Position numbers and translations under genes: made by a program. The notes beneath the pieces are model-generated. The model saw nothing but the letters and a program-made list of their open reading frames with translations, ran no database searches and had not been told where the DNA came from. Shown here in pieces: positions 807 to 62,086 of a stretch of DNA of 62,777 nucleotides (position 1 is the first letter of the stretch; each line of letters starts with the position of its first letter). The stretch is from a virus: the IMG/VR virus record IMGVR_UViG_3300022413_000011, positions 1 to 62,777 of that record. One strand, given 5' to 3'.

Positions 807-812
807 AAGAAA

Positions 813-977
813 CATTGCACGCATCATGCTCTGTGGTGGGGCTGAGATGCGTGAGCAACCATGACTCGTGAATTTTCTTACCTGCCTGTGCAACTCATAT
901 ATGGATACGGTTGCAATCCATATATGAGTCACCACCACCACAGGCACAGGCTGGTAAGAAAGCGCACGAGTTTTTTT
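813..977 (+). ncRNA. Structured leader or small RNA, about 165 nt, two hairpins
   Basis: No good reading frame fills this interval. The first hairpin pairs CACGCATC (818-825) with GATGCGTG (846-853). The second is a long rod: CTCGTG 865-870 with 965-970, TTTCTTACC 874-882 with 953-961, CCTGTGC 885-891 with 944-950, and a 13-bp block 894-906 with 916-928 closed by a 9-nt loop. Only one side has a sizeable bulge (929-943, CCA-rich). Seven T residues follow at 971-977. It starts at a promoter and ends at a terminator, so it may be an independent RNA. Because the replication operon begins only 22 nt later, it could instead be a cis-acting attenuator or antitermination leader. Confidence 0.6.
865..977 (+). 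terminator. Long rod hairpin plus T7 run
   Basis: The roughly 35 paired positions between 865 and 970 are followed directly by TTTTTTT (971-977), the form of an intrinsic terminator. The stem is far longer than usual and lies just ahead of the early operon, so read-through must be allowed or regulated unless another promoter serves the genes downstream. Confidence 0.6.
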
Positions 978-998
978 GTTCCATGAAAGGACATGACC

Positions 999-1767: not shown

Positions 1768-2976
1768 ATGAGCACATACAGAGTAGTACACAACAAGGAT
1801 AACCCATACTACATAAAGAGCAGGATTGCTCCAAACGACCCACTCCTGTCTTTCAAGGCGAAGGGTATCCATGACTGGCTTATGTCAAAACCTGATGACT
1901 GGTTGGTCATCATGGATGTAATCATAAAAGCATCCTCAGATGGCGAAACGTCTGTTCGGTCTGGCATCAAGGAACTTGAGGCGCACGGCTATGTTCAGCG
2001 CAGACGCGTCACTGACGAAAAAACCGGCAAGGTTCTGAGGTGGGAAACTCATGTATTTGAGTCCCCACAGGAACCAGATCCAAACCTGGCAGAAGACAAT
2101 GAACCAGATGTTGATTATCCAGATGTGGAAAACCCACATGTGGATAACCCAGATGTGGATAATCAAGCCCTACTAAGTAAAGATATACAAAGTAAAGATA
2201 AACTAAGTAAAAAGATTGGCGCTGCTGACGCAGACGCATCTTTGGACCTGGAAAATTTGGAAGATGAAGAAAAGCTAGCAGAGGTATCCCTTTCTTCTGC
2301 TAGTTCTTCTGAAGATGATGACACCGAAGAAACTCCGACTGAAGATGCAGTTGATGAGAACGCGCCCGACCACATCGGACCTACCGGGCTCCCGGAGTCG
2401 GAGAGACCCAACGACAAGAACGGGAAACCTCTAACGGATATCCAGTGGTATCTCAAGGAGTGGGCAGAGGCACAGGGAACTGACCCCACGAAATTGAATG
2501 GACAGGGTCCGCGCCAGTCTGCTGGTGCAAAGAACCTCCTGCAAAACGAGATTTCGATACCAGAGATGGTTCGCGCAATCAACGTTATGAAGCGCGACAA
2601 TTTCAACACTGGTCGCACCATCAGTTTTCAGGAGGTGGTCAAGGATGCCCCGGCCATCCTGCAAATAGACATCCCACTGACAAAGGAGCAGCAGGACATT
2701 GAGGATTTGATGTACAGACTCACCTCCAGAGATAAGGAGACAGCCAGCAAGGATGACTACCTGACAATCAAGAGGGCAGCAGTCATCCTTCAGGGGAAGG
2801 GATGCACATTTGAAACCATGACAGAGTGGTATCAGACATGGGTTAAGGCTTATGGGGTGGTCGTGAGACCAACCCCGTCGAGCGCACAGCAGAAATTGTG
2901 TGCATTCATAGATGATAAGAATGGCAACCCGTTTGACGATGCCCCCAAGAAGGAAACCAAGTGGGGCGAACTGTAA
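1768..2976 (+). CDS. Replication initiator, O/DnaD-like winged-helix protein
   Basis: The first roughly 100 residues match the winged-helix domain typical of phage replisome-organiser proteins: SFKAKGIHDWLMSKPDDW, then a helix-turn-helix and the wing KELEAHGYVQRRR. Such proteins bind origin iterons and recruit the helicase or its loader. Residues 113-132 form four 5-residue repeats (PDVDY-type), encoded by four 15-bp DNA repeats, followed by a low-complexity Ser/Lys and acidic linker. The C-terminal 180 residues look globular and may contact the helicase. GAGGTG lies 4 nt before the ATG. Position upstream of clamp, helicase and SSB supports an initiator role. I cannot tell whether the C-terminus is DnaD- or DnaC-like. 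Confidence 0.7.
   Translation: MSTYRVVHNKDNPYYIKSRIAPNDPLLSFKAKGIHDWLMSKPDDWLVIMDVIIKASSDGETSVRSGIKELEAHGYVQRRRVTDEKTGKVLRWETHVFESPQEPDPNLAEDNEPDVDYPDVENPHVDNPDVDNQALLSKDIQSKDKLSKKIGAADADASLDLENLEDEEKLAEVSLSSASSSEDDDTEETPTEDAVDENAPDHIGPTGLPESERPNDKNGKPLTDIQWYLKEWAEAQGTDPTKLNGQGPRQSAGAKNLLQNEISIPEMVRAINVMKRDNFNTGRTISFQEVVKDAPAILQIDIPLTKEQQDIEDLMYRLTSRDKETASKDDYLTIKRAAVILQGKGCTFETMTEWYQTWVKAYGVVVRPTPSSAQQKLCAFIDDKNGNPFDDAPKKETKWGEL
2104..2215 (+). repeat. Four 15-bp iterons plus AT-rich tract: candidate origin inside the initiator gene
   Basis: Four head-to-tail 15-bp units begin at 2104, 2119, 2134 and 2149, with core CCAGATGTGGATAA and few mismatches. They are followed by an AT-rich stretch (2164-2215) in which AGTAAAGAT or AGTAAA recurs three times. 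Iterons next to an AT-rich unwinding region inside the initiator's own gene is the lambda O/ori arrangement. Confidence 0.6.
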
Positions 2977-44026: not shown

Positions 44027-45664
44027 TTATACATTTCCCTGTGGCTGTGCCGAGGCTTCAGCCTGATCATTCGTTCCCTCCAGGGGGTTTTCCTCCTGAA
44101 GAGACTCCTCCAATGCAGCCACCTCTACAAGCGACTCGGACTCCACCCTGAGTTTCTCAAGCGCAGCAATAGAGAGTCGTATGCGCCATCGTCTCTTCTC
44201 GCCCTGTATCGCATTCAAAGCCGTGTACGCTCTCTCCAGAGCATCTGTTGTCTCTTCAAGAACGACATCGGCGTTTTCGGATGTCATCCTTACCGGACGT
44301 GTGACTTCTTTGAGCAACAGTTCAATCATGGGGTCACTGGAGTAAAACAACGAATAGACATCGTCCCCGTCCGGGGTTCGCCCATCGGAAAGCTCGAGTG
44401 TTTCAAATTCGAATTTTGTAATCTCACCCTTACGCATCATCATCATGCGCTGGGTTCGTGTGTCAGTTAGACCACTGGCCACATCCCTGCTGCGCGCGGT
44501 GGCGCGCATAGCATGGATTCGTGCCGTGGCCTCATCCTGCGAATCGTCCAGTGAGTCAAAGGTGGCAGACAACCCTTCAGGGCAGTATTTCTCAGTGAGT
44601 TGCTCTGCCAGGTCGTCTGTAAACTCTTTCAATCCTTTTGTTTTCAGCTTGCGATCCATCGTCTCCGCGTCGCCCTTGGTGGCTCCCTGTAAGCCAAAGG
44701 CGATGTTCAGGTCTCGCAAGTCAAGGCCAAACGCTGAAGCAACCACGGACATATCTATCAGATATGTTTCCGTGCGATTGAACCCGTCCGGTGTTCCTGC
44801 CAGGTCTATTTTGTTCAGCTTCAGACTGGACGCGGCCATCTTGGGTGCCAGCAAGAGGGTCTTTGAGAAATAATCGTTACCAGATGCAGAAAGCTTCACA
44901 TGGTGGGCACCCACAGCCGACTCGATTTGGTCCACTGTCGCCCCGGTTTCCACGTAGAGTATCTGGCGCGCTGGCTTACTCCCTAGCTTCTCCTCTAGGT
45001 AGCTAGAAATCGCCTTCTGCTCTCTGGCAGACTCCAGACACGAAGAGACCGGACAAAAGCCCACACCGTTAAGTTCAGGGTCGGGGTTTGGCAGCTTCGT
45101 CATATGGACAAGGCGCGTATGGTGTATGGGGTACTGCTGCATATCGGTGTGGGTGTATACAATGGGGTATTCAGGGGAACTAGTCCTCATGCAGAGGGCA
45201 CTTTGCATGTGTGCTAGGCCATATGGTCTCCCAACAATAGGCCCGTCCTTGTTCCCCTGGCCCAGGACAAGCATAAATGCACCGTTATCCTGGGTTAAAT
45301 AGTCCTGCACAAATTTCTGTAGCTCATTCCTCAGTCCACCCATCATGCCAGAGTTTCTCATGAGGGAGACTCGCATCTCCTCGGCCATCTTGACCATTCT
45401 GGAGACACTTCTGTCATCTGCTTCAATGGTGAGAGGGACAGACAACAGCTTGCTCGTAAATGTGACGATGGATATTTTGAGTACATCGGCGTCAAACGCC
45501 AGTTTTCTTAGCGCGGAGTCACGGTGCGCACTCCAGTACGGGGGAATACCAGATACGCTGCCCGGGAGCAGAAAGGCGACGCGATGACTCATCCCACTGC
45601 TGTCGGCATCCGTCTCCGTTTCCCAGGGCGCGCCTGACATAACCTCTTGTAATTTATCAGGCAT
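44027..45664 (-). CDS. Portal protein
   Basis: 545 residues from ATG 45664, which overlaps the terminase stop by 8 nt; an upstream in-frame GTG is less likely. The core looks like a portal: early helices, the stem/crown region (ADVLKISIVTFTSKLLSVPL), LTQDNGAFMLVLGQG, and the late helical tail (ERAYTALNAIQGEKRRWRIR). It forms the dodecameric DNA channel to which TerL docks. Order TerS-TerL-portal-protease-capsid supports it. Confidence 0.75.
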   Translation of the reverse strand: MPDKLQEVMSGAPWETETDADSSGMSHRVAFLLPGSVSGIPPYWSAHRDSALRKLAFDADVLKISIVTFTSKLLSVPLTIEADDRSVSRMVKMAEEMRVSLMRNSGMMGGLRNELQKFVQDYLTQDNGAFMLVLGQGNKDGPIVGRPYGLAHMQSALCMRTSSPEYPIVYTHTDMQQYPIHHTRLVHMTKLPNPDPELNGVGFCPVSSCLESAREQKAISSYLEEKLGSKPARQILYVETGATVDQIESAVGAHHVKLSASGNDYFSKTLLLAPKMAASSLKLNKIDLAGTPDGFNRTETYLIDMSVVASAFGLDLRDLNIAFGLQGATKGDAETMDRKLKTKGLKEFTDDLAEQLTEKYCPEGLSATFDSLDDSQDEATARIHAMRATARSRDVASGLTDTRTQRMMMMRKGEITKFEFETLELSDGRTPDGDDVYSLFYSSDPMIELLLKEVTRPVRMTSENADVVLEETTDALERAYTALNAIQGEKRRWRIRLSIAALEKLRVESESLVEVAALEESLQEENPLEGTNDQAEASAQPQGNV

Positions 45665-46985
45665 AATCCATTCCCATTCCGTCACAATCGTTCAAAAATG
45701 TGACAGAGTATCTTAGAGTATCACACGAGTGATCGTGTATCTTTTTTGGTTTCTCTTGCACACCGTCTTTATTCTCTGCCCACACGTATCCGGGGATTTC
45801 CTCTATGATTCCACTGGGCAACCCCTTTTCCTCGCAGACCTCATCTGGTTCTTCGAGACATCCAGAATAAATCGTCAGAGAGGGTCTCCCGTCGTCATCG
45901 AGTTCGAGTTTCTCAGACACCCTTTCGATGCCATATAACACGTCGTTGTTTGCTGGCACAGCAGGTAGTCCTGCTTCAACAAATTGCTGTAGAAACTCTG
46001 GCCTGGCAGGGTCACAGACAAAGATGTCTGGGTGATATATGGCCGACAACTCCCTAGCCTTTTCAATCCACCACTCTATGGTTCTCTGAGTCTTGGACAC
46101 CTCGTGCAAGACGCGCACATCGCGTTTTACATCCATAGAGGAGACCATCATCGTCCCCCTGCTGGTGTATCCCCAGTCAACACCCACTGCCGTGATTGTT
46201 GTGACTTCTGGGTTGGGCAGGATATGGGTGTTGTCCCAGAGTGTGGCTGGCGTTTTTGTGCCACGAACCGTAGCGTCCAGCATTTTTTGTCTGGACACCG
46301 AGTGAATACTGTCATTCCAGTCCCAGATGACGCCTTCGGACTGAGCCCATTTCCCCTCTAGCAGACGAAGTCTCGTAACCCCTGTTAGCTTTCTTAGAGA
46401 CTCTATATAGTCGTCTGGGTTATATGGGTTGTCCAGGGGACCTGCCTCGTACACAGAGGCTTCTCCCCCTAGTATCAGCCTCCTGCGAATCCAGTGCATT
46501 GGGCCATCTGGATTTGTAGACAGAATAATCTGCCTCCAGGGTGCTGCTTGCCCTCTCATGCGCCCCAGAATCTCGTTGTAATCGCTCTCGAGGAATCTGG
46601 TTGCCTCTTCCATCCAGGCTATATCAATAGACCCTGCTTGCCCGATGGAGCGAATCGCTTCTTTCTGCTCCTCATCGGCCATGCCTCCATAAGCCAGGAT
46701 GCTACCGTTTGCATACTCAAATCTAAGCTTGGACGAGAAATGACGTATGAATGGGTCGCCCTGCACCACCGTTCTCTCGAACATCAGAACGGTGGAGTTT
46801 GTCATACTTTGTCGCTTTTTGCGCAGCATGACCCCCATTGCGTCGGGATACTTCCTGAGATACGCATCCATCTTTTGGGCTGCGCACATACTGCGCCCTG
46901 CTCCAGCAGGACCAGACAAGAGAACAGTAGATGACTTGTCCCGAAGTGGGGGAATTTGCCACGCCAATGGCGTAAAAGAATTCAC
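45657..46985 (-). CDS. terL: Terminase large subunit
   Basis: 442 residues. ATPase: LLSGPAGAGRSMCAAQ in the Walker A place (Arg where Lys is usual), and IDIAWMEEATRF as Walker B with catalytic Glu. Nuclease: VGVDWGYTSRGTM supplies the first RNase H-like Asp, and CDPARPEF with HDHSCDTLRY the later acidic residues. It packages DNA into proheads and cuts it. The start codon appears to be GTG immediately after the preceding stop (TAG-GTG), without a strong ribosome site, so expression may depend on the secreted-protein gene upstream. Confidence 0.85.
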   Translation of the reverse strand: MNSFTPLAWQIPPLRDKSSTVLLSGPAGAGRSMCAAQKMDAYLRKYPDAMGVMLRKKRQSMTNSTVLMFERTVVQGDPFIRHFSSKLRFEYANGSILAYGGMADEEQKEAIRSIGQAGSIDIAWMEEATRFLESDYNEILGRMRGQAAPWRQIILSTNPDGPMHWIRRRLILGGEASVYEAGPLDNPYNPDDYIESLRKLTGVTRLRLLEGKWAQSEGVIWDWNDSIHSVSRQKMLDATVRGTKTPATLWDNTHILPNPEVTTITAVGVDWGYTSRGTMMVSSMDVKRDVRVLHEVSKTQRTIEWWIEKARELSAIYHPDIFVCDPARPEFLQQFVEAGLPAVPANNDVLYGIERVSEKLELDDDGRPSLTIYSGCLEEPDEVCEEKGLPSGIIEEIPGYVWAENKDGVQEKPKKIHDHSCDTLRYSVTFLNDCDGMGMDYA

Positions 46986-47459: not shown

Positions 47460-47843
47460 TTATTCCTCTATTAGAAATTCCTCTTCTTGTACTTCGATCT
47501 CAACATCATCCCAGTCATCTGGCGTAAACCCGATGAATGCCTTGATTTCTCCGTTGTTGATGATTTGGCCGTCCTTGTATTTATCAGGTTTGTGTGCCTT
47601 CAGCATCTTTTCTAGGAGCATATCGCTGTCCGATAATGCCCGTCTCCCTGCTTCACCCTCCAGTCGGTCGGCAAAGTCGGATTGGGCATCATCGAATTCT
47701 TCCTTAAACTGGGGGTTGTCTCGAATAGCCTTTCTGACGACACTGGAACTCACCCCAGCCTCCAGGGATGCCTCGTAAATGTTTCCTTTTACTATGTATG
47801 ACTCCAGAAACGCTGGCATCCAGATACCGTCAGAGATACTCAT
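47460..47843 (-). CDS. terS: Terminase small subunit
   Basis: 127 residues from ATG 47843. An N-terminal helix-turn-helix (GNIYEASLEAGVSSSVVRKA) is followed by NPQFKEEFDDAQSDFADRLE and a long helix, the normal TerS pattern for DNA recognition and oligomerisation. A promoter lies so close that transcription would begin at or just before this ATG, so the message may be leaderless, or the true start may be ATG 47819 (MPAFLESYIVKG). First gene of the late operon. Confidence 0.7.
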   Translation of the reverse strand: MSISDGIWMPAFLESYIVKGNIYEASLEAGVSSSVVRKAIRDNPQFKEEFDDAQSDFADRLEGEAGRRALSDSDMLLEKMLKAHKPDKYKDGQIINNGEIKAFIGFTPDDWDDVEIEVQEEEFLIEE

Positions 47844-47850
47844 GGGCCTA

Positions 47851-47879
47851 CTAATACAACATGCGCATCCTAATGTCAA
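47851..47879 (-). promoter_or_regulatory. Late operon promoter (minus strand)
   Basis: On the minus strand TTGACA (47879-47874), 17 bp, then TATTAG (47856-47851). The perfect -35 suggests a strong host-sigma70 promoter. Predicted start point about 47844, at the terS ATG. No other good promoter was seen for the 37-kb late operon. Confidence 0.6.
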
Positions 47880-47910
47880 CTGACGGAATACATCAGTATC
47901 CTTACAGGAA

Positions 47911-47993
47911 ACATTTTTTCCGGAAAAATCTGGAAAAATCTGGAAAAATGTGGATTTTTCCGGAAAAATCTGGAAAAATCCACATTTTTCCGG
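47911..47993 (+). repeat. Phased A-tract array with 20-bp inverted repeat between divergent promoters
   Basis: Eight 10-bp modules of type (C/T)GGAAAAATC or its complement follow each other without a gap: 47911, 47921, 47931 and so on. A5/T5 tracts recur every 10 bp, which normally makes DNA bend strongly. Within it, 47942-47961 and 47972-47991 form a perfect 20-bp inverted repeat with a 10-bp spacer. It lies 32 bp from one promoter and 8 bp from the other. Candidate operator, partition site, or pac/cos recognition site beside terS. Confidence 0.75.
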
Positions 47994-48000
47994 CGAATCC

Positions 48001-48029
48001 TTGCTTTTGGTGCCTCGTCGTGCTATAAT
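48001..48029 (+). promoter_or_regulatory. Rightward promoter of the divergent pair
   Basis: TTGCTT (48001-48006), 17 bp, TATAAT (48024-48029, perfect -10). Transcription would begin near 48036 and read into the RHH-like gene at 48071. TGCTGCA is repeated at 48029-48044 around the start point and could be a small operator. Confidence 0.65.
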
Positions 48030-48070
48030 GCTGCATAGTGCTGCACGAAACGATAAAAATAGGAGGGGTT

Positions 48071-48445
48071 ATGAGTATGAGACCGTCAGTAAACCTAAAC
48101 ACACCAGAATTGGTGGAAATGTTTGAGGTTGTAGCAGAGAGGGTTAGAAGATTTCATCCAAAGGCCAGTGACTCAGATGTGTTTATCCTGATATTGGTGG
48201 ACAAGTACAACTACTACACAGATCCACATCCAAAAAAGGAAAGCGAGTCAAGTCTGGCCAGAATAGAGAATATGCTGAAGGTTCTGCTAGACGAAAAGGG
48301 CGTGGAGTACATCCCCCCATACAAAGACATGGATTTTTCCGACTGTGACAATCCATATATCGAAGAGATGAGTTTGTCCGATGCCCTTGATGTTTTCCAT
48401 ACCGTAAGGGATGCGATAGGCAATAATAGCACATCCCAAATTTGA
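48071..48445 (+). CDS. RHH-like small protein, possible regulator of the divergent region
   Basis: 124 residues from ATG 48071, with AGGAGG 4 nt upstream; ATG 48077 is an alternative. The N-terminus (RPSVNLNTPELVEMFEVVAE, then a second helix ASDSDVFILILVDKY) could be a strand-helix-helix fold of the MetJ/Arc type. The C-terminal half is acidic. As first gene beside the repeat array it is a natural candidate to bind those repeats. The match is weak; function otherwise unknown. Confidence 0.5.
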   Translation: MSMRPSVNLNTPELVEMFEVVAERVRRFHPKASDSDVFILILVDKYNYYTDPHPKKESESSLARIENMLKVLLDEKGVEYIPPYKDMDFSDCDNPYIEEMSLSDALDVFHTVRDAIGNNSTSQI

Positions 48446-48496: not shown

Positions 48497-50041
48497 ATGC
48501 CGAACAGAAAAATTGTGGGGCTGGCAACCCTGTATGTTGCCCTGACGGGTGCAATGGGTCTACTTGTGTATATGGGCCTCACGGCAGTGGGGGCACAGGT
48601 AGACCCATTGGTTATTACCGTCATTGCCGTGCCAGTCACAACGCTGATTTTTGTGTGGATAATGAATAGCCAAAAAACTAGCCCTAGAAAAAACAGAGAA
48701 TTGGACTTCGTGGTGCCAGTGCATCGCGCGTCCGCGCCACCCACGGATAGCTCTCCACCAGTTACCCAAAAAGCCAAGAAGGTTGTCACGGACGCAGACC
48801 TTCTGGCCCTGCGAGAAGCGTCAAACAGAGAGGAGTGGGGGATTCGGTTTGGCAAAGGGAACGTGCTGTCTCGCCACACGGTATACTCTCTGTGGCTGGC
48901 GAATGGGGTCACCTCCAGGAATGTCCTTAAACTAAGGGACCATATGGCAGACATTATATATAGGGGTCGTGGGAACCAAGGCGAACAGAGAGTAAAAGTC
49001 ACCTTCGTGTCTCAGCCAGCCACCATAATAGTGCCACGCCTAAATCCAGACATCCTGAGATACTCCGACGCACCCACACCCGGGTCGTACACGGCAAACC
49101 TGGGGGTAACGGCATCGTACCCAGAAAAAGATGTCTCTGTGAACCTTGGGGGAAACAGCGAGTTCTCTCTTCTAATAGGTGGGGCTCCTGGTAGTGGGAA
49201 ATCAAATCTACTAGATGGCATCATCGTACAGTTGGCCATGCACAACTCCCCAGAGGACATCCAGTTTATCCTGGCAGACATGAACGAGAAGCACCTGTCC
49301 CCGTATGAGCGTATCCCCCACGTGAGGACTATGGTGAAGACCCCTGGGGAGATGATGAAACAAATCAGATGGATAAAGGAGCATCTGTTCAAAGGCAAGG
49401 ACGGGGATTTCTCCCAAAGAACCGTCCTAATTGTAGACGAGGCAGACTGGTACACGGGCACCCATGACTCTAACCCGAACGTACGGTCACTGCGTCATGA
49501 GTTAACCCTGATTGTAAACAAGGGTAGAGGTTTTGGCGTGTCAGTCATAATGGCAACGCAGAAACCATCAAACGACAATATGCCAACCAACCTGCGAGAC
49601 GCCTTCCCCACCAGAATTTCTGGCAAAACGGGGAGTGTCCCTCAGTCAACAATGATTTTAGGCCCTGGGTTCGACCAAGGGGCTTACCTCTCCGGGGAGG
49701 GCCACTTCTTTATCCAGGGACGAGAACAGGAGCGCGAGTTTCTCTCGTACCTTGTGGAGGACAGGGAGAAGGAGATACAGAGGATTGTTGAGAAGTGGCC
49801 AGGGTTTTCTAGGGGAGGAACATCGGTTGACGATGTGGAAATACCGGAAAGAGTTCTGGCTGTCTTCAGAGAGTGTGACGATGGTCTGGGAAACCTGTCT
49901 GGCCACAAGGTGAAGGCAATGAAGGCCCTGTCATCTGTTCTAGGCAGGTCTCACGCTGGAGACAACTACGCAGAGTTTACAGAGCGTGTGAATGAAATGG
50001 TAGACAAGTACAGGAGGGACAACCATGAGCATGGAGTATGA
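48497..50041 (+). CDS. FtsK/SpoIIIE-like membrane DNA translocase
   Basis: 514 residues with AAAGGAGG 4 nt before ATG. Two N-terminal membrane helices (LATLYVALTGAMGLLVYMGL; LVITVIAVPVTTLIFVWIM), a linker, then an FtsK-type ATPase: Walker A LIGGAPGSGKSNLLDG, Walker B RTVLIVDEADWY, sensor SVIMATQKPSNDNMP. There is no FtsK gamma DNA-orientation domain. Relatives include plasmid transfer pumps (TraB/TraSA type) and phage-plasmid FtsKs. It may pump phage DNA through or along the membrane, or distribute plasmid-form DNA at division. Confidence 0.75.
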   Translation: MPNRKIVGLATLYVALTGAMGLLVYMGLTAVGAQVDPLVITVIAVPVTTLIFVWIMNSQKTSPRKNRELDFVVPVHRASAPPTDSSPPVTQKAKKVVTDADLLALREASNREEWGIRFGKGNVLSRHTVYSLWLANGVTSRNVLKLRDHMADIIYRGRGNQGEQRVKVTFVSQPATIIVPRLNPDILRYSDAPTPGSYTANLGVTASYPEKDVSVNLGGNSEFSLLIGGAPGSGKSNLLDGIIVQLAMHNSPEDIQFILADMNEKHLSPYERIPHVRTMVKTPGEMMKQIRWIKEHLFKGKDGDFSQRTVLIVDEADWYTGTHDSNPNVRSLRHELTLIVNKGRGFGVSVIMATQKPSNDNMPTNLRDAFPTRISGKTGSVPQSTMILGPGFDQGAYLSGEGHFFIQGREQEREFLSYLVEDREKEIQRIVEKWPGFSRGGTSVDDVEIPERVLAVFRECDDGLGNLSGHKVKAMKALSSVLGRSHAGDNYAEFTERVNEMVDKYRRDNHEHGV

Positions 50042-57138: not shown

Positions 57139-57185
57139 GTATCTCCTTATCGCTCCTGCTATGATTATTAAATCCGGCAATACTT

Positions 57186-57214
57186 ATTGTACACTGATTG
57201 TGGGATTTTTGCAA
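57186..57214 (-). promoter_or_regulatory. Leftward promoter
   Basis: On the minus strand TTGCAA (57214-57209), 17 bp, TACAAT (57191-57186). It faces away from the rightward promoter at 57303, so 57139-57360 is a divergent control region. Confidence 0.6.
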
Positions 57215-57302
57215 GAGCTATAGCCCTTCAGGGGTGATTGTAGCACATATTATCTGAAAAATCAATCGGTACGAAACAGGATGAGTCTGCCAGTATCGTA
57301 AT

Positions 57303-57343
57303 TTGTCACTTATTAAATAATATGATATACTATTATTTAATAA
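57303..57343 (+). promoter_or_regulatory. Rightward promoter embedded in a 13-bp inverted repeat operator
   Basis: TTGTCA (57303-57308), 17 bp, TATACT (57326-57331). A perfect inverted repeat, TTATTAAATAATA (57310-57322) and TATTATTTAATAA (57331-57343) with an 8-bp centre, covers the spacer, the -10 and the start site. A dimer bound here would block the polymerase. The RHH-like protein coded next is the obvious candidate. Confidence 0.7.
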
Positions 57344-57360
57344 TCACATGGGAGAGAGAC

Positions 57361-58123: not shown

Positions 58124-59089
58124 ATGAACAAAATCACACTGACGGACAGCGTGTACCCTGTTGGAGCCGACTTGGGAAACGGTTTTGTTAACCTATACAT
58201 GCAGGACCGACACGCTGGCCTACCGGCTGGATACATGCTCGAGAAACCCACAGGCCCATACGACCCCAAGCGCATGTCATACAAATCCCCAAAGGCGCAA
58301 GAGATTGTCGTCAACGATAAAACCGTATGGGTTGGCCGCGATACTCTCACTGACAAGATGGTGAGATACCTGGACGACACAAAGTACGACAAAGAGCATC
58401 TTCGTATCCTGTTCAGTGCAGGGTTGGCAGAATGGCTTTCCCTGACGAAGGCAAGCACCGAAGAAACGCTACGTCTACGCGTGGCATGTGGGATGCCAGC
58501 CGAAAAGTTCCAGGACCCCAAGAACCGCGCGCTTGCCGAGAAAGCGTACAAGGCTGCTTTTAAGGTGACTAACTCGGACCAGTGGCGCATCACGGTCGGT
58601 GGCAAAAGGATACGTCTGCTGACCGAGTTTGCTGGACTCAGACCCGAGACCGTTGGGTACGCTTGCGTAAGCAAGTTGCACAAAGGGTACACGGTGTTGA
58701 TGGACTGTGGTGCGGGAACCGTCGATGTGTGTGTGTTCCATAGCTCCCAACAGAAAACCCCCATAACTGTAAAATCCTTCAACATAGGGCTCATACACGC
58801 GTTTGACGACATCAACCCCATGCAGATGGACCTACCAGAACTCCTTCTGATTCGTAAGGAGATTGATCCATCGGTACTTAACCCGTACGTGGCGCAAATC
58901 AAGACGCTGACCACAAAGTTCTGTCGCAGGCTCGAAGTGAAGGGGCAGGAAATCAGGGTAAAAATTATTGGGGGCTTGCCTCACCTGATGAGCAAGGAGC
59001 AGCGCGCGTCTCTCTCAATGGGGATACCAGTCGTGTTTGGTGATGCTGGAGAAAACGCGCGGGCGTTTGCTAACTACGCTGGAGAGTAG
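58124..59089 (+). CDS. parM: ParM/Alp-like actin-family ATPase
   Basis: 321 residues, GGAGG before ATG. Actin fold motifs: phosphate-1 PVGADLGNGFVNLYM, phosphate-2 VLMDCGAGTVDVCVF, adenosine motif KIIGGLPHLMS, and the C-terminal PVVFGDAGENARAFANY usual in ParM relatives. These proteins form filaments that push plasmids apart or, in some prophages, move viral DNA. Together with the small protein at 59160 it makes a type II partition pair. A lytic position-control role is also possible. Confidence 0.8.
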   Translation: MNKITLTDSVYPVGADLGNGFVNLYMQDRHAGLPAGYMLEKPTGPYDPKRMSYKSPKAQEIVVNDKTVWVGRDTLTDKMVRYLDDTKYDKEHLRILFSAGLAEWLSLTKASTEETLRLRVACGMPAEKFQDPKNRALAEKAYKAAFKVTNSDQWRITVGGKRIRLLTEFAGLRPETVGYACVSKLHKGYTVLMDCGAGTVDVCVFHSSQQKTPITVKSFNIGLIHAFDDINPMQMDLPELLLIRKEIDPSVLNPYVAQIKTLTTKFCRRLEVKGQEIRVKIIGGLPHLMSKEQRASLSMGIPVVFGDAGENARAFANYAGE

Positions 59090-59097
59090 GGGTCCTG

Positions 59098-59155
59098 TCC
59101 CTAAATCCGTCGAAAATGGGATGGGTGCATCCCTAAATCCGTCAAGAACGGGATG
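59098..59155 (+). repeat. Two 32-bp direct repeats between parM and parR-like genes
   Basis: TCCCTAAATCCGTC occurs at 59098 and 59130, each followed 8 nt later by GGGATG, so each unit can form a TCCC/GGGA hairpin. Could be partition-site half-units or a translation-control element for the following gene. CATCCCTAAAT here also appears in the repeats at the right end (62268). Confidence 0.6.
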
Positions 59156-59159
59156 AAAA

Positions 59160-59435
59160 ATGGAAATCAGGTTCAGATTAGATGCCGTGGTAGATGTAAA
59201 ATTTTTGGAGAAATTCTCTCCCCTGGTGAACGCTGGTGCTTCACAGGGGGACGCGTTCCGCGCGTCTCTGCAACAACTACTACTAGAGGCAGAGAGGGGT
59301 GGCGTGATACTGGCCCTGTCCAGTCAGCCCCCAATGGTCAACAACTACGCCACACCGAGCACCAGCATGGGGAAGGCTGTGGAGACAGACTCCGACCCAT
59401 TTGATGTGGATTTTGACGATATTGTAATCAGTTAA
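59160..59435 (+). CDS. parR: ParR-like ribbon-helix-helix adaptor
   Basis: 91 residues. The opening MEIRFRLDAVVDVKFLEKFS and GASQGDAFRASLQQLLLE follow the form of plasmid RHH proteins linked to ParM (FRFD..D..LLEWL......R..AIREAL). The C-terminus is acidic with a short motif (DFDDIVIS) suited to bind ParM filaments. Order parM then parR is the usual one. The ribosome site GGGATG lies inside the repeat. A family search would be needed to be sure. Confidence 0.5.
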   Translation: MEIRFRLDAVVDVKFLEKFSPLVNAGASQGDAFRASLQQLLLEAERGGVILALSSQPPMVNNYATPSTSMGKAVETDSDPFDVDFDDIVIS

Positions 59436-61931: not shown

Positions 61932-62086
61932 GCCAATGTTTGTTCTCCGTAGCCCCACTTTCTCCTGTCGCAATTTAATGGGGTTCCGTGGCATGGCATT
62001 CTGATTTCTCCTTTAGGGTAATGTTGGTAGGATTATAGTTGATAGCAAAAGGGCCAGATCCATATGGATCTGGCCCTTTTGTTTTT
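61932..62086 (+). ncRNA. Small RNA 3, about 155 nt
   Basis: No reading frame of note. TGCCAATG (61931-61938) pairs with CATGGCA (about 61993-61999, one bulge), enclosing AGCCCCA with TGGGGTT, so the 5' half is a rod of about 70 nt. A less structured, U-rich stretch leads to a perfect terminator. Promoter at one end and terminator at the other. The plan (rod with internal loops) is reminiscent of regulatory RNAs but matches none I can name. Confidence 0.6.
62047..62086 (+). terminator. Intrinsic terminator of small RNA 3
   Basis: A 34-bp perfect palindrome (62047-62080) centred on CATATG, with G/C-rich stems and A4/T4 ends, followed by GTTTTT. The A4 on the other side would also allow leftward termination. 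Confidence 0.85.

Follow-up and report, generated by a model that had tools for sequence, protein, structure and literature searches.

Genes and features at the locus

The window analysed, 62 777 nt in all, is a virus record that is classed as linear and lacks end repeats. Positions 47844–48070 make up the entire intergenic gap between terS, read leftwards from its start codon (ATG at 47843), and the first gene read rightwards, which begins at 48071. The terS gene (47460–47843, minus strand) encodes a small terminase subunit of 127 residues (phrog_4044, E = 5e-17). Its AlphaFold model, calculated without alignments, consists of helices only, with a predicted helical N-terminal DNA-binding region at low confidence (pLDDT 44), and a comparison of TerS with the PDB gave no match. 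The other leftward genes are terL (45657–46985, minus strand), which encodes a large terminase subunit of the Terminase_3 family (PF04466, E = 2e-18; PDB large terminase entries 5oe8–5oeb, E = 8e-7), and a portal-like gene. On the right, ORF48071 (48071–48445, plus strand; 124 residues) is an orphan of no known family and is not recognizably RHH, and the second rightward gene (48497–50041, plus strand) encodes an FtsK/SpoIIIE-like ATPase and has its own promoter-like site at 48442. The right end of the contig (62200–62777) is non-coding and of odd composition, being CA-rich with AAACACCCC-like repeats, and is preceded by a strong terminator-like hairpin near 62040–62085; this stretch may belong to the natural terminus of the phage or may be chimeric.

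Between the two divergent genes lies an array of helically phased A-tracts (47913–47993, no strand assigned) composed of eight 10 bp modules with GGAAAAAT in either orientation. The initial annotation had equated the array with 47844–48070 and had described it as touching terS; that span is the whole intergenic gap, of which the array covers 47913–47993, and approximately 70 bp separate its end from the start codon of terS. Its description of eight A5/T5 modules in helical phase with a perfect 20 bp inverted repeat was borne out. The eight tracts (AAAAAT/ATTTTT) span 47913–47989 at 10 bp spacing, with centres at 47916, 47926.5, 47936.5 and so on to 47986.5; the first centre-to-centre step is 10.5 bp and the following six are exactly 10.0 bp. 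The octamer GGAAAAAT is present in seven of the eight tracts, five times on the plus strand (47922, 47932, 47942, 47962 and 47972) and twice on the minus strand (47954–47961 and 47984–47991), and the first tract carries the variant ATTTTTTCC. Of the ten GGAAAAAT octamers on the two strands of the window, seven fall inside the array, and the flips in orientation leave the 10 bp phase intact. Over 80 bp in total, 6 bp AT runs alternate with 4 bp GC-containing spacers. Among the modules the spacers keep their sequence as well as their phase; this points to a site read by its sequence, or to recent duplication, rather than to selection for shape alone.

The arms of the inverted repeat (left, 47942–47961, plus strand, GGAAAAATGTGGATTTTTCC; right, 47972–47991, minus strand) are 10 bp apart, both lie within the array and between them include two near-DnaA boxes (TGTGGAT/ATCCACA). 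An exact direct repeat of 26 nt on the plus strand recurs at a 40 bp offset (47915–47940 and 47955–47980), so that duplication probably helped to build the array. The longest chain of in-phase tracts that arose by chance was three in 200 first-order Markov genomes and four when the local 227 bp were shuffled 2000 times, compared with the eight observed. As a sequence feature the array is solid; its function is left to the readings weighed below.

Curvature was calculated using a dinucleotide-wedge model and an A-tract model, both with parameters set by hand. As the initial annotation had expected of phased tracts, the array ranked first under both models among all 100 bp windows of the 62.8 kb contig. 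From this prediction we infer that the DNA of the array is bent in fact; it would form an intrinsically curved segment with a total bend of about 140° if each A-tract contributes about 18°.

Promoter-like sites and candidate ligands

A weighted σ70-type scan of both strands (approximately 627 000 scored combinations, with weights set by hand) placed a promoter-like site on either side of the array, in agreement with the divergent promoters proposed in the initial annotation. The predicted rightward promoter P_R (48001–48029, plus strand; TTGCTT-17-TATAAT with a TG extended −10) ranked fifth genome-wide and scored as good. The predicted leftward terS promoter P_L (47851–47879, minus strand; TTGACA-17-TATTAG) ranked 28th and scored as moderate. 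Owing to its hexamer limits, a standard promoter scan missed both sites. Their promoter-like sequences suggest that P_L and P_R fire, with predicted starts at about 47843–47845 and 48036, respectively. Since the P_L start would fall on or beside the A of the terS ATG and no Shine–Dalgarno sequence is visible ahead of terS, the terS transcript may be leaderless.

The phased A-tracts lie directly upstream of predicted P_R, the arrangement that characterizes an upstream curved DNA element. The last tract (T5) is at about −52 to −47 and the tract centres are at −49.5, −59.5 and so on, so the last tract would occupy the position of the distal UP subsite of P_R. A 10 bp direct repeat, ATAATGCTGC/ATAGTGCTGC (48025–48044, plus strand), covers the −10/start region of P_R and is a possible separate operator.

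Three proteins, all named as RHH in the initial annotation, were considered as ligands alongside TerS. For the product of ORF48071, no RHH signal was detected in Pfam or PHROGs, no credible relative was found in the PDB and the AlphaFold model (without alignments) is all-helical and of low confidence, and the assignment was abandoned. The 57361 protein gave an RHH match that was sub-threshold only (E = 0.14). The third, the small ORF at 59160, follows a ParM-like gene (58124–59089; ALP_N, phrog_691). The 57361 and 59160 genes each have candidate sites nearer than the array. The gap between parM and parR holds a 26 bp direct repeat (88%; copies at 59098 and 59130, spanning 59098–59155), which is a candidate ParR site and a more natural ParR target than the array. 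Positions 57160–57360 form a second divergent promoter-like region, in which AT-rich inverted repeats (TTATTAAATAATA/TATTATTTAATAA) overlap the promoter of the 57361 gene. Because ORF48071 lacks an RHH signal and the other two proteins have nearer candidate sites, TerS is the most economical phage ligand of the array, with ORF48071 next.

Comparison with known systems and with other viral contigs

The pac region of SPP1 and SF6 covers the promoters and the start of terS and contains runs of 5–7 AT pairs split by GC pairs over approximately 100 bp (PMC4737164). The binding of pac by the DNA-binding domains of SF6 TerS is weak and shows little preference for sequence, and it has been proposed that intrinsically bent pac DNA is picked by a ring of HTH motifs, which measures approximately 300 Å around and has one motif for each helical turn; the TerS–pac complex represses the motor operon, i.e. 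that of TerS itself (PMC4737164). There is still no agreement on how the TerS of headful-packaging phages chooses viral DNA (PMC9611059). The present array resembles SPP1/SF6 pac in its location on the promoter side of terS (approximately 70 bp upstream of the ATG, at the 5′ end of the gene), in its AT runs of 5–7 bp between GC pairs, in its extent (approximately 80–100 bp) and in curvature, here predicted from phased AT runs. It differs in its perfectly regular 10 bp modules and in the divergent promoters, and no homology to boxA/B/C is claimed. The TerL of SPP1 presumably belongs to Terminase_3, the same Pfam family as the TerL of this phage. By this analogy TerS would bind the array, and we regard it as the leading candidate ligand.

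Two further precedents concern promoters. Phased A-tracts affect a bacteriophage promoter according to work cited in PMC9825172, and the array resembles the upstream curved DNA of bacterial and phage promoters described in such work in having phased A-tracts just upstream of a σ70-type −35; unlike those elements, it places eight tracts between two divergent promoters, in both orientations and with a perfect inverted repeat. In φ29, p4 recognizes the A-tracts in the region of the early and late promoters and does not need intrinsic bending to do so (PMC3100819). The likeness to the φ29 A2c/A2b–A3 switch region, where the early/late switch takes place, lies in A-tract-rich DNA at a promoter region (PMC3100819). 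The p4 sites, CTTTTT-N15-AAAATG, are absent from the array when its sequence is read against the consensus in PMC3100819, and no relative of p4 was recognized among the neighbouring genes.

Searches for close relatives of the phage in which conservation could be followed returned none. Relatives of terL share only 22–30% identity, and those inspected have no similar array upstream of terS; searches of viral contigs yielded no close relatives for the capsid, FtsK-like or portal gene, and the array DNA had no match in viral contigs, genome contigs or phages. We surveyed 2.9 million viral contigs for direct A5 arrays at 10 bp spacing; five-unit arrays occurred in 19 contigs only, and a second, four-unit pattern matched 32. 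At least two unrelated contigs have arrays near terS, lying 86 bp (L050) and approximately 155 bp (L075) upstream of the gene. Other arrays are found upstream of an HNH-terS-terL operon (L067), between terL and the portal region (L036 and L055) and beside packaging genes (L076). Such single cases near packaging genes are analogies only. Among the 26 records in which terL could be located, the array–terL distance matched random placement (seven within 2 kb versus 6.6 expected, Fisher p = 0.64), and an out-of-phase control with a 13 bp period was similar (six versus 3.5 expected, p = 0.05); a general association of phased arrays with terminase was therefore dropped. Recurrence at terminase would be a supporting, not a strictly defining, expectation for an SPP1-type pac site. 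Long arrays of CAAAAATCGC-type 10 bp modules, with approximately 15 and 22 units, were also seen in two large viral contigs (L032 and L045).

Interpretation of the array

The explanation that we favour, with a confidence somewhat short of even, is a joint one: the array is curved DNA that acts in cis to control the promoters diverging from it, and a multimeric protein binds it, TerS being the leading candidate. The array would provide the scaffold on which RNA polymerase and a DNA-binding protein, ring-like or multimeric, assemble. Reaching to approximately 50 bp from the P_R start on the upstream side, it should favour transcription from P_R, and a phage protein that wraps the 80 bp curve should switch both the activity of P_R and the terS–terL promoter P_L. 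If TerS is the ligand, the site would combine a packaging start with operon control as in SPP1/SF6. This explanation is favoured by the position of the TerS and TerL genes directly downstream of predicted P_L and by the coincidence of the predicted curvature maximum with promoter-like sites on either flank, and further by a run of eight phased tracts that no shuffle came near, by the SPP1/SF6 parallel and by the arrays near terS in L050 and L075; the array–TerL distances in the 26 records, which are no shorter than random, the sequence conservation of the spacers and the lack of relatives that share the array argue against it. An idealized, shape-selected packaging start, in which the eight A-tract turns match the TerS ring with one HTH per turn and wrapping both starts packaging and switches the two divergent promoters, is unlikely in our judgement. 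If true, it would offer a natural case in which to test whether TerS reads shape or sequence. A bent segment at terS that is minimal and near-perfectly periodic would make a clean substrate for tests of shape recognition by this protein.

The three functions offered in the initial annotation fared differently. Two-way transcriptional control and a TerS/pac role are plausible and have precedents (PMC9825172 and PMC4737164, respectively), whereas the centromere is disfavoured by the distance to parM and by the repeat found there. A role in transcription alone is possible but rather doubtful: curved and partly UP-element-like DNA would strengthen P_R, or an autoregulator, for instance the product of ORF48071, would have its operators in the array, or both, with no part in packaging. 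The last tract at the distal UP subsite of predicted P_R, the resemblance of the octamer and the inverted repeat to protein sites, and the position of ORF48071 as the gene immediately downstream are consistent with this, but ORF48071 has no recognizable DNA-binding fold, the −10 of P_R has its own small direct repeat and the location on the terS side is left unaccounted for. Were the array a promoter element only, eight tracts in phase between the divergent promoters of a phage would still be an unusually regular case of natural upstream curved DNA. It is distinctly improbable that the array is a neutral or weakly selected tandem repeat without a dedicated binder, produced by 10 bp and 40 bp duplications and a palindrome-centred inversion. 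The 26 nt duplication is exact, inversion about CCGG centres keeps the 10 bp phase automatically and 10 bp A5 arrays occur sporadically, and in no preferred place, in unrelated phages; the precise placement between two promoter-like sites in a divergent-gene gap, where the predicted curvature of the contig peaks, speaks against such an origin.

We consider it very improbable that the array is a parC-like centromere bound by the ParR of the phage ParM/ParR pair. The ParM-like gene with its small following ORF is present, parC sites consist of short direct repeats in arrays, and the array recalls type II (ParMRC) centromeres and alpS of prophage CGP3 in its short repeats in tandem and in the actin-like partition gene that the phage carries. 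Unlike in those systems, where iterons lie at the promoter of the par operon, the array is approximately 10 kb from parM, and the par operon carries repeats of its own, namely the direct repeat in the parM–parR gap and the AT-rich inverted repeats in the region upstream; no GGAAAAAT module lies near parM. Equally remote is a replication origin of A-tract-bent iterons with DnaA-like boxes, to which the two near-DnaA boxes in the inverted repeat would point. Iterons of such origins lie beside or within the initiator gene, and no initiator gene is present beside the array. A better candidate origin lies at 2104–2162 (plus strand), where a 15 bp tandem repeat with the DnaA-box-like TGTGGATAA is found inside a probable replication gene (1768–2976).

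Elsewhere in the contig, the intergenic segment at 808–980 (plus strand) is an RNA candidate. It matched no Rfam family and has a very strong predicted fold (−78.5 kcal/mol, z = −8.4 versus shuffles), a promoter-like site at 778–806 (rank 8 in the contig) and a T-run at its end.
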